Positions 7,660-10,074 of a stretch of 38,720 nucleotides of DNA are shown piece after piece. The position numbers and the translations under genes are program-made. Below the pieces are notes generated by a model. The model was not told where the DNA came from and did not search any database. It was given only the letters and a program-made list of their open reading frames with translations. The stretch is taken from NCBI GenBank assembly GCA_003222535.1, contig QHWJ01000341.1, positions 1 to 38,720 of the forward strand, in the 5' to 3' direction. Source of the stretch: Acidobacteriota bacterium (GTDB lineage: Bacteria; Acidobacteriota; Vicinamibacteria; Vicinamibacterales; CAVVIG01). Numbering within the stretch: the first letter of the stretch is position 1; each line of letters begins with the position of its first letter.

Positions 7660-8064
7660 TCAGTCAGGTGGACAAATAAGCGGAAGCATTTCGCGCTTGT
7701 TCCGTCGATACGCGCGGAAGTCCTCCCGATCGACGGTGATGACGGCGTGACGCGGATACAGCTCGCTCATGCGAATCAGGCACAGATCGGCCAGGTCGGG
7801 ATGCCGGTCGGCGTACCGTTTGGCGAGCGCGGTCAGTTGCGGCAGATGATCGTTGCAGGCGAACGCGATCGTGATGAGACCGTCCGAGATCATGGCCAGC
7901 GGCAGCGATGCGCTTTCGAGATGGAAGGCACTCTCCGCCAGCACGGCCTCGCACGTCAACAGCGGTTCGGTCACGCGCGAGGCGACGCCTACCGCCCAGT
8001 CGTGATGCGCGTCATTGCGGTTCGCGAACGCGACGAGGAACCCCGTGTCGGCGATGCCCTTCAT
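7660..8064 (-). CDS. vapC: PIN-domain toxin (VapC-like)
   Basis: The 134-residue protein has the PIN ribonuclease signature: an N-terminal Asp in GIADTGFLVAF, an acidic residue in the AVLAES segment, and the C-terminal pair in HPDLADLCLI and AVITVDREDF. These acidic residues bind the metal ions that cut RNA. Its ATG overlaps the antitoxin stop codon (ATGA at 8061-8064), so the two are translationally coupled. The frame stays open upstream to 8229, but the overlap and the N-terminal motif fix the start. Length is usual for VapC toxins. Confidence 0.88.
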   Translation of the reverse strand: MKGIADTGFLVAFANRNDAHHDWAVGVASRVTEPLLTCEAVLAESAFHLESASLPLAMISDGLITIAFACNDHLPQLTALAKRYADRHPDLADLCLIRMSELYPRHAVITVDREDFRAYRRNKREMLPLICPPD

Positions 8065-8273
8065 TTGCGTGAGAAGCCCCTCCTCGCCGACAAGTCCCTC
8101 GGCCCCCGCGCGATCCCCGCCAGCCGCATGAACGATTGTGACGCCGACGCGGCCTTCGCCCGCTCCAGCTGATCGCGCACGATCTTTCCTTGAGACACGC
8201 CGGTCCTGTCGGATTCGCGCACCAGCCACTCCGCAAGGTCAGCGTCAAGACGAACCGTGATCGTGTGGCTCAT
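8061..8273 (-). CDS. Ribbon-helix-helix antitoxin (CopG/RHH type)
   Basis: The 70-residue product begins MSHTITVRLDADLAEWL, a ribbon-helix-helix strand followed by a helix, with the conserved TGVSQGKIVRDQLERA second helix. This fold binds operator DNA as a dimer, and the C-terminal tail is expected to block the toxin. The longer frame up to 8417 is rejected because the RHH strand normally sits at the very N terminus. It precedes and overlaps the PIN toxin. Autoregulation through the site just upstream is expected from the family. Confidence 0.85.
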   Translation of the reverse strand: MSHTITVRLDADLAEWLVRESDRTGVSQGKIVRDQLERAKAASASQSFMRLAGIARGPRDLSARRGFSRK

Positions 8274-8295
8274 ATGGCAATATTGTATTACATCC
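8271..8295 (-). promoter_or_regulatory. Possible promoter/operator of the RHH-PIN pair
   Basis: Directly upstream of the antitoxin ATG lies the 8-bp palindrome CAATATTG (8278-8285), overlapping a TACAAT-like -10 on the minus strand. AT-rich palindromes of this kind suit RHH repressors. No clear -35 was found. Confidence 0.35.
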
Positions 8296-8507
8296 ACGCC
8301 TCGATGCGCGGAGCTTTCCGTGTTCGCGTCACGCCGACGCCGGGAGTCAGGATGACGGAAATACCTGGCCGCACTCCTCGGACCCGGGTGTATAACGGTG
8401 CCCATCCGGGCGGCCAAAGTGGACTCCCGGATCTGACGAACCGGACCTCGTCGTTTTCCTCCTTTGGAGGCGGTGGTTTATTCGAATTTCTCCCAAGGAG
8501 GATGAGC

Positions 8508-9770
8508 ATGGACAGGCGGAACTTTTTCAAGACCGGCGGCATGGCGCTCGCCGGATTCGGCCTCGCCGGCTGCGGCCCCAAGAAAGTGGTCCAGACGGCG
8601 CCAACACTGCCGAGGGCGCTCGCGTTCGCGCCACGGCCCGCGATCGACTTGACGCCCCCGCGTATCACGTGGGAGCGGGTCATCCGGACGACTATCGGCT
8701 TGCGTCCGCACCGCGACTCCGGCTTTGTCCTCAAGGGGGTGAAGTTCGATGACAGGACCGTGATCCACGACTACGGCTTCGGTGGCGCCGGCATGTCGCT
8801 GGCCTGGGGCTGCGGGGCGATGGCGGCCGACATGGCGCTGGAACAAGGAGACCGTCGTGCGGCGGTGCTCGGTTGTGGTTCGCCAGGCCTGACCGCGGCG
8901 CGACAGCTGCAACGGCGCGGCTTCGCCGTCACGATCTATACGCTGGCCGTGCCGCCGTACACGACGTCGAACATGTCGTCGGCCGGCTTCACGCCAACCG
9001 CGGGGCTGGTGTCTGCCGACCAGCGCACGCCGGCGTGGGACGCGCAGTTCAGGCAAGCGGCTGAGATCTCATACCGGCAGCTCCAGCTGCTCGCCGGCGC
9101 GCCCGGTTACGGGGTCTACTGGATCGACAACTACAACGCCACGGACGATCCGACTCCTCCGGCGGGCGGAGGTCCTGACGGCGATCTGGTTCCCGAGCAC
9201 CTGCGGACCGGCCGGGACCGGGAAGTGCTGGGCCCGGGCGAACATCCGTTCCCGACCAAGTACGCGATTCGCACGTCGGCATTGGCGATCGAGCCGTCGA
9301 TCTATCTCGACGCGCTCGTCCGCGACTTCGTGCTCTTCGGCGGCAAGATCGTCATCCGCAAGTTCGACACGCCACGCGATCTCATGTCGCTGAGCGAGCC
9401 GGTCATCATCAACTGCACGGGCCTGGGATCCAAAACACTCTTCGAAGACGAGGAGCTTGTGCCGGTCAGAGGGCAGCTCACCGTGTGCATCCCGCAGCCC
9501 GAAGTGCACTATCGGGCGTCGGGCCGTCTCCCGAACAGCACGATCAACGCGAGCATCAATCCGCGGAGCGACGGGCTCGTCATTGGCAACATGCAGGAAC
9601 GCGGAAACTGGTCGCTCGAACCCAATGAGGAAGTGCGCCAGCAGAACGTGAACGCGGCCATCGCGTTTTTCGCGGCAATGCGCGCCCCGACCGGTGGAGT
9701 CCGGCGTACGCGATCCGGGCCGGGACCGGCCATTCCGAGCCTGGAAAGCTTCTACGGATTGGAATCCTAG
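8508..9770 (+). CDS. Exported FAD oxidoreductase, DAO family, circularly permuted motif order
   Basis: AAGGAGG six bases upstream fixes the ATG at 8508 (420 residues); the frame is open back to 8190. The N terminus RRNFFKTGG plus a lipobox-like LAGC at 19-22 indicates export, perhaps as a lipoprotein. D-amino-acid-oxidase family motifs are present but reordered: the segments normally near the C terminus (IGLRPHRDSG, 63-72, and the YGFGGAG-SLAWGC block, 85-102) precede the FAD-binding AAVLGCGSPGLTAAR (118-132). The middle of the family, with RGQL at 321-324 and SDGLVIGNMQERGNW at 354-368, follows and ends the protein. It should oxidise an amine or amino acid outside the cytoplasm; the substrate is unknown. 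Confidence 0.83.
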   Translation: MDRRNFFKTGGMALAGFGLAGCGPKKVVQTAPTLPRALAFAPRPAIDLTPPRITWERVIRTTIGLRPHRDSGFVLKGVKFDDRTVIHDYGFGGAGMSLAWGCGAMAADMALEQGDRRAAVLGCGSPGLTAARQLQRRGFAVTIYTLAVPPYTTSNMSSAGFTPTAGLVSADQRTPAWDAQFRQAAEISYRQLQLLAGAPGYGVYWIDNYNATDDPTPPAGGGPDGDLVPEHLRTGRDREVLGPGEHPFPTKYAIRTSALAIEPSIYLDALVRDFVLFGGKIVIRKFDTPRDLMSLSEPVIINCTGLGSKTLFEDEELVPVRGQLTVCIPQPEVHYRASGRLPNSTINASINPRSDGLVIGNMQERGNWSLEPNEEVRQQNVNAAIAFFAAMRAPTGGVRRTRSGPGPAIPSLESFYGLES

Positions 9771-9771
9771 A

Positions 9772-10074
9772 TTTGAGCGGCGAGAAGTCGGTGGGGGTCA
9801 CGAACGTCGATTCCACCTTGCCCACCAGCGGTCCGTTGGCTTCCGACGTGTCGCGCAGAGACTTCCACGCCGGGTCGTTCCGGAAATCGTCCCACGATTT
9901 CTTCGCAGCCTCACGGCTCTGGTGAGCCAGCACGTACAGGTAAGTATTCTGCGAGGCGGGCTCCTCGGCGGCCACCGAGTAGAACACGCCTTTCATGCCG
10001 TGCTTCTCGAAGAGCGCGGCCTCGCCTTCGCGCATGCGCTTGACGAGCGTGTCCAGCTTGCCAGGGGAGCTTCT
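9772..10074 (-). pseudogene. NIPSNAP-family fragment lacking both ends
   Basis: The minus strand reads PGKLDTLVKRMREGEAALFE, then Y-LAHQSREAAKKSWDDF, DPAWKSL and VESTFVTPTDFSPLK, which is the core and end of a NIPSNAP-fold protein. The usual N-terminal ELRTY strand is absent: a stop codon (10075-10077) lies just before the fragment, next to the amidohydrolase ribosome site. At the other end the frame runs without its normal stop into the oxidase gene. The piece is antisense to its neighbours and has no start signal, so I call it a remnant. Confidence 0.7.

Follow-up and report, generated by a model that had tools for sequence, protein, structure and literature searches.

Does a flavoprotein whose signature motifs stand in the reverse of the usual order represent a natural circular permutation of a D-amino acid oxidase (DAAO), and how is this order related to an export signal at its new N terminus? 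The question was raised by a gene in the window, as we call the whole stretch of 38,720 nucleotides of an Acidobacteriota contig that was analysed. To our knowledge, few enzymes have been circularly permuted in nature. Coordinates below are on the plus strand of the window unless another strand or locus is given.

Domain order and predicted fold

The gene is an intact ORF of 420 aa plus a stop codon at 8508-9770 (+), read directly in the sequence, and its product matched the Pfam DAO model. A Shine-Dalgarno-like AAGGAGG (8495..8501, likewise read in the sequence) lies 6 nt before the ATG at 8508, in agreement with the intact frame and strong ribosome site of a preliminary description of this DNA; translation could also begin at an in-frame ATG at 8502. 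Canonical DAAOs have the FAD motif at the N-terminal and the YGHGG-G block at the C-terminal side, whereas in the window protein this order is reversed. IGLRPHR (63-69) and the YGFGGAGMSLAWGC block (89-102; 8772..8813) stand N-terminal to the GxGxxG FAD motif block (118-132; 8859..8903, by alignment), and RGQL (321-324) and the SDGLVIGNMQERGNW block (354-368; 9567..9611) follow it, positions that bear out the order given in the preliminary description.

Pfam DAO (PF01266) matched the window protein at 83.6 bits (gathering cut-off 27.9), with residues 118-405 falling on profile positions 2-310 of 353. When the protein was un-permuted, a single match covered residues 5-345 and profile positions 2-353 of 353 (90.4 bits), and the alignment with human DAAO (6kbp_A) ran over 4-328 in one stretch, indicating a circular permutation that has kept the whole domain, with every part present once. 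In a phmmer search against the PDB, DAAO 7ct4 was matched out of order, with query residues 57-112 on 319-374 and 240-398 on 148-315. Furthermore, residues 46-113 alone matched 17 distinct PDB sequences (E up to 1), all of them at DAAO or DASPO C termini and the best at 7ct4 319-372 (E 5e-7). By homology, residues 50-113 (8655..8846) correspond to the DAAO C-terminal segment (~274-330), shifted to the N terminus, while residues 114-394 (8847..9689) correspond by Pfam, VIA and alignment to DAAO 1 to ~268-269, i.e., the FAD-binding and substrate domains. Both new termini fall in the loop around human DAAO residues 269-274. A linker of a few residues connects the former C-terminal helix with the former N-terminal strand, and the C-terminal tail of DAAO is absent; order and junction are directly apparent. 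The window protein is almost certainly a circularly permuted relative of DAAO/DASPO. Within residues 114-394, HPFPT (246-250; 9243..9257) was invariant in 25/25 rows of alignment A1. The C-terminal tail (395-420; 9690..9767) is variable and of low confidence, as seen from its pLDDT and dN/dS (see below).

An AlphaFold2 model built on 24 sequences (the window protein and the loci of a contig scan) had a pLDDT of 79.9 and a pTM of 0.77, with pLDDT 84-97 in the 10-residue blocks spanning 41-110 and <50 at 395-420; a single-sequence model (pLDDT 33) was set aside. Residues 50-113 were predicted with high pLDDT to form strands at 58-69, 74-80 and 83-89 and a helix at 95-111 (beta-beta-beta-alpha), an order which we take to fit the topology of the DAAO C terminus. 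The top 33 Foldseek rows were all DAAO/DASPO at 21-24% identity. VIA placed model residues 114-390 on DASPO 6rkf_B 2-264 (Z 19.4, 3.0 A, 256 residues), and its best rows other than DAAO/DASPO were CmiS2 (Z 15.9) and glycine oxidase (Z 15.8). Residues 50-113 were placed neither by Foldseek, whose alignment follows chain order, nor by VIA, in which no listed range started before residue 109. The sequence matches and the model indirectly support a position of these residues where DAAO has its C-terminal segment.

Two features flank the gene. A NIPSNAP-domain ORF (9580-10035, minus strand) converges on it with an overlap of ~190 nt at the 3' end, which lies outside the NIPSNAP domain and covers DAO residues from ~358 on. 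Upstream, 7660-8417 (minus strand) holds two small overlapping ORFs that look by eye like a ribbon-helix-helix/PIN toxin-antitoxin pair, the larger of which had no Pfam match at E 1e-5.

Permuted and canonical relatives

Homologues sharing the permuted order, for which the preliminary description had proposed a search, were indeed found: it was common to 73 non-duplicate sequences, and 20 relatives from the same searches had the canonical order. Together with the full-length Pfam match after un-permuting and the VIA alignment of the core, they bear out the natural circular permutation that had been suggested. The 73 sequences came from Acidobacteriota, Pseudomonadota, one Actinomycetota and one Chloroflexota MAG. 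A scan of genome contigs gave 24 loci, of which 20 were from Acidobacteriota-type MAGs, 3 from Woeseiaceae and 1 from Chloroflexota. Draws of genomes from the phyla were then compared. For the phylum of the window, 42 of 297 genomes matched (26 permuted, 7 canonical and 9 with short matches only, E >1e-4), where order was assigned by profile for one locus in each of 33 genomes. In the phylum of the Woeseiaceae locus (Pseudomonadota), 20 of 398 genomes matched at E 1e-10, all permuted and the seed included, while that of the Chloroflexota locus gave 15 matches in 251 genomes: the permuted seed, 13 canonical and 1 fragmented. Among 10 records of a plasmid collection, H1-H5 were permuted (H3 being from Nonomuraea, Actinomycetota), H7 was permuted but frameshifted and H8 was canonical; H6, H9 and H10 were left out of order scoring.

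The counts exclude frameshifted genes (L003, L004, L023, L114), another flavoprotein (L047), a fragmented one (L080), second copies from the same places (L043-L046, L081-L090), a duplicate of L020 (L034) and a near copy of L104 (L105); further copies from G041, G253 and G277 entered the neighbour analysis but not the counts. Near-identical pairs such as L091/L092, L097/L098, L052/L057 and L055/L058 were kept, so the counts are of sequences and not of events. Another intact paralogue in permuted order is present in the source genome (L002, 38% identity), and contig C138 of this genome (G000, L003/L004) holds a frameshifted fragment of a third. L025, of the Chloroflexota MAG and the sole permuted member in the 251-genome draw, grouped with an Acidobacteriota sequence (93/72); transfer or mis-binning is possible. 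In Mesorhizobium (L114:4735-5798) two CDS are annotated, which could have been a natural split enzyme; this was ruled out, since the reading frame is interrupted within the FAD motif, which marks the gene as frameshifted.

The permuted enzyme is a widespread bacterial family without a name of its own, and the annotated members that were examined are named only FAD-dependent oxidoreductase. When the PDB was searched with a profile, no permuted chain was seen among the 39 distinct sequences listed and no best stretch spanned the junction; best matches of DAAO/DASPO chains ran from profile 106-113 to 373-381. The titles and abstract openings of the literature matches listed describe no permuted DAO protein, the excerpts of PMC11334425, PMC1683948 and PMC13359353 contain nothing on one, and such wording is absent from PMC9844085.

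Compared with DAAO/DASPO (PF01266), the window protein is alike in sequence, FAD motif, carboxylate-binding Arg, YGHGG-G block and fold over 114-390, but differs in its order and in the loss of Tyr228 and the Tyr224 loop. It also bears a Tat lipoprotein signal, unlike eukaryotic DAAO, which is peroxisomal or cytosolic. Glycine oxidase ThiO (TIGR02352; 1ng3, 4ysh) shares the fold of the superfamily (VIA Z 14.8 and 15.8) but has canonical order, and the window protein scored 29.8 bits against the TIGR02352 equivalog cut-off of 250.8. The superfamily fold is likewise shared with Proteus L-amino-acid deaminase (5fjm, 5hxw; VIA Z 15.2 and 14.9), in which an N-terminal segment gives membrane association and the signal precedes the FAD domain in canonical order. 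The canonical bacterial relatives (L067-L079, L102-L108, L115) have the same motifs in canonical order, and 0/20 passed our Tat scripts.

Export signal, active site and neighbouring genes

The window protein starts with the export-like sequence MDRRNFFKTGGMALAGFGLAGC. Residues 1-22 (8508..8573) make up a Tat-type lipoprotein signal with twin Arg at 3-4, an uncharged h-region and an LAGC lipobox ending in Cys22, so that the export signal with lipobox of the preliminary description was recovered; R3, R4 and C22 were nearly invariant in alignment A1. The strict Tat script (RR followed by a 12-residue window that is both most hydrophobic and uncharged) was passed by the window protein. The Pfam TAT model, a profile of only 21 positions, gave 11.9 bits against a cut-off of 22.7 (E 0.24). 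Over the family, the strict script was passed by 62/73 permuted vs. 0/20 canonical sequences (Fisher p 8e-13, relatedness ignored) and the lipobox test by 54/73 and 0/20. Under a looser script, which accepts any uncharged hydrophobic 10-residue window, the figures were 67/73 and 0/20, 5 of the 11 permuted sequences that failed the strict script being regained. The remaining six were L017, which is truncated by a contig end, L064, with a stop just upstream, and L065, L110, L111 and L113, divergent permuted members without signal. From these features Tat export of the window protein is very likely, and it is probably a lipoprotein anchored at Cys22. However, the permutation is not demonstrably required for export: the four divergent members are permuted without a signal, and exported or membrane-bound superfamily members of canonical order exist, such as Proteus L-amino-acid deaminase. 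The two traits are therefore separable.

In human DAAO, Arg283 and Tyr228 bind the substrate carboxylate and Gly313 the amino group, according to an excerpt of PMC6279847. In our joint alignment the Arg283 column held Arg in 73/73 permuted and 20/20 canonical rows, the residue of the window protein being Arg66 (8703..8705). The Gly313 column held Gly in all 93 rows (73 permuted, 20 canonical); by alignment, this residue belongs to the DAAO YGHGGYGLTIHWGC, the counterpart of the YGFGGAGMSLAWGC block. All three Gly of the FAD motif were kept in 73/73 permuted rows. The SDGLVIGNMQERGNW block corresponds by alignment to the DAAO active-site strand, and the Tyr228 position lies a few residues before it. 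Here canonical rows had Tyr in 19/20, while permuted rows had Tyr in 25/73, His in 21, Ser in 12, Asn in 8 and others in 7; the Tyr224 loop was not conserved in permuted rows. The window protein aligned with Ser at Tyr228, though its column may be off by one because the loop is gappy: in the pairwise alignment with human DAAO, the position falls at a gap of one residue next to this Ser. Since the Tyr228 position is other than Tyr in the window protein and in 48/73 permuted rows, it is not certain that the chemistry is DAAO-like.

All-against-all BLAST of the ORFs of 82 loci, some of them duplicates, found no operon partner spanning the permuted family, and a conserved operon was rejected, many ORF clusters being antisense shadows. 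A prolyl oligopeptidase cluster occurred in 13/82 loci (Pfam-confirmed on all four tested: L015, L016, L024, L153), an amidase cluster in 6/82 (confirmed on L028, L142, L145) and a ThDP cluster in 4/82 (Pfam-confirmed on L024, L145, L147), with further ThDP neighbours in L110 by Pfam, L111 by NCBIfam, and L113 and L114 by annotation. Prolyl oligopeptidase, S15 peptidase and amidase genes stand near other permuted members. In L024 (Acidobacteriota), prolyl oligopeptidase and ThDP enzyme genes lie directly upstream on the same strand. In the Rhizobium, Bradyrhizobium and Nonomuraea members of the distant group (L110, L111, L113), the next downstream gene encodes a ThDP enzyme; that of L111 scored highest as indolepyruvate/phenylpyruvate decarboxylase, far below the cut-off. 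As a lead, these recurrent neighbours would fit an enzyme that oxidises amino acids freed by secreted hydrolases, with the 2-oxo acids passing to the ThDP enzyme; L110, L111, L113 and L065 possibly belong to a cytoplasmic pathway from amino acid to aldehyde. In L122-L125 (phylum of G298), hslV and hslU, the normally adjacent genes of a protease operon, are separated by a permuted DAO gene; HslV was recognised by NCBIfam in L122 and L123 and HslU in L122, and the remaining assignments were made by sequence.

An enzyme of another kind has to be weighed here. The window protein could be an exported flavoprotein dehydrogenase with a non-amino-acid or an L-amino or imino acid substrate, which hands electrons to a cytochrome or quinone and has lost DAAO-like chemistry. 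The poor conservation of Tyr228 and of the Tyr224 loop points in this direction, and so does Kozakia, where the permuted gene is followed after 5 bp by a cytochrome c gene (upstream are genes for an S9 peptidase and a serine hydrolase of beta-lactamase fold). However, an adjacent cytochrome c was recognised this once only, the carboxylate-binding Arg is invariant, a ThDP enzyme gene adjoins in L024, L110, L111 and L113, and the end of the permuted gene of L157 shares 4 bp with an overlapping amino acid permease gene. We hold the dehydrogenase to be somewhat unlikely. The window enzyme is moderately expected to oxidise an amino or imino acid, while D-specific activity is suggested with a little less than even confidence.

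Origin and meaning of the permuted order

Permuted and canonical sequences were firmly separated in unrooted trees. With human DAAO included, 29/73 permuted rows and 21 canonical rows fell on opposite sides of one branch (100/100); in 53-row trees (33/73 permuted) the split had an SH-aLRT of 100 from the core only and 98 from the segment only; and in the tree with all 73 permuted rows the canonical rows made up one side of a branch (100/100). With two ThiO-type paralogues (same genome) as outgroup, the root fell among the permuted rows, near branches of 18-48% bootstrap. Read literally, such rooted trees need two order changes, which is weak evidence because the outgroup branches are long (3.7 and 4.6 in the 73-row tree; 2.7-4.6 changes per column over the trees).

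If the order changed more than once, by at least two permutations or by one permutation with a later reversal, this would mean that the divergent L065, L066, L110, L111 and L113 were permuted separately or that the canonical order was regained. Besides the ThiO-type root inside the permuted rows, this is favoured by the starred branch (97/92) that, once human DAAO was added, joined these five divergent sequences to the canonical rows, by the segment match, which starts at profile ~13-15 in the divergent group vs. 1-2 elsewhere, and by the missing signal in 4/5 of them. However, the deep supports in the 73-row tree are low (18-48%), the outgroup branches are very long, and the AU test did not reject a single permuted clade (p 0.506 and 0.339). 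Without ThiO, the tree with human DAAO kept the 29 permuted rows on one side in 100% of 200 bootstrap trees, and the break lies in the same loop. Recurrent change of order is improbable in our view, and one origin of the permutation is likely. Of the monophyletic exported clade for which the preliminary description had proposed a test, the separation from canonical relatives by one branch and the mostly exported character stood; as a rooted clade it is likely only.

The order could also have arisen by fusion, if a DAO gene received at its front the C-terminal piece of a paralogous one and then lost its own. Permutation by duplication goes via such a fused intermediate, and the end products of both routes are alike. 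No ORF with the segment on both sides was found among the ORFs scored for order. Nevertheless, the segment-only (98) and core-only (100) trees gave the same permuted/canonical split and both pieces matched the same PDB family best, which makes fusion of paralogues very improbable.

Purifying selection acts on both parts of the protein. Against the 94%-identical L005, dN/dS was 0.065 (50-113), 0.084 (114-394), 0.30 (1-49) and 1.24 (26-codon tail), and against L007 it was 0.36, 0.23, 0.24 and 0.41, respectively. For 114-394 it was 0.11 against L006 and 0.15 against L008, where synonymous sites of 50-113 were saturated. An artefact, be it chance motif order, misassembly or a pseudogene, would agree with the single frameshifted relatives (L003/L004, L023, L114) but is refuted by 73 non-duplicate frames with the same order, by this selection and by the confident fold model.

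As a whole, we consider it probable that the window protein is a DAAO-family FAD enzyme which arose by one permutation and is exported by Tat as a lipoprotein that oxidises amino or imino acids. A canonical DAAO-like protein would have been circularly permuted in what we infer to be a single event. Because the new N terminus bears a Tat signal and a lipobox, the probable course is that the protein takes up FAD on folding in the cytoplasm, is exported via Tat and stays in the cell envelope through a lipid anchor at Cys22. There it would most likely bind an amino or imino acid by Arg66 and oxidise its C-alpha-N bond, giving a 2-oxo acid and ammonia, in a pocket that is probably altered, given Ser at the Tyr228 position; oxygen or a respiratory carrier are candidate electron acceptors.

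For annotation, the finding means that order-dependent methods truncate the match, the best Pfam stretch stopping at 310 of 353. Biotechnology could profit from a DAAO-like enzyme that is stable and exported and has its N terminus free at the surface. More tentatively, and with the odds against it, an ancient permutation may have founded an envelope-anchored branch of DAAO, in which the N terminus, moved away from the FAD-binding strand, was freed for a Tat signal and anchor, and the substrate changed with the loss of Tyr228, as probably did the acceptor. Its envelope enzyme would then act on what secreted peptidases and amidases release and supply a ThDP enzyme with 2-oxo acids. One family here offers both canonical and permuted relatives for comparison, together with a strong association with export, and whether permutation eases the export of a cofactor-loaded enzyme is a testable question.
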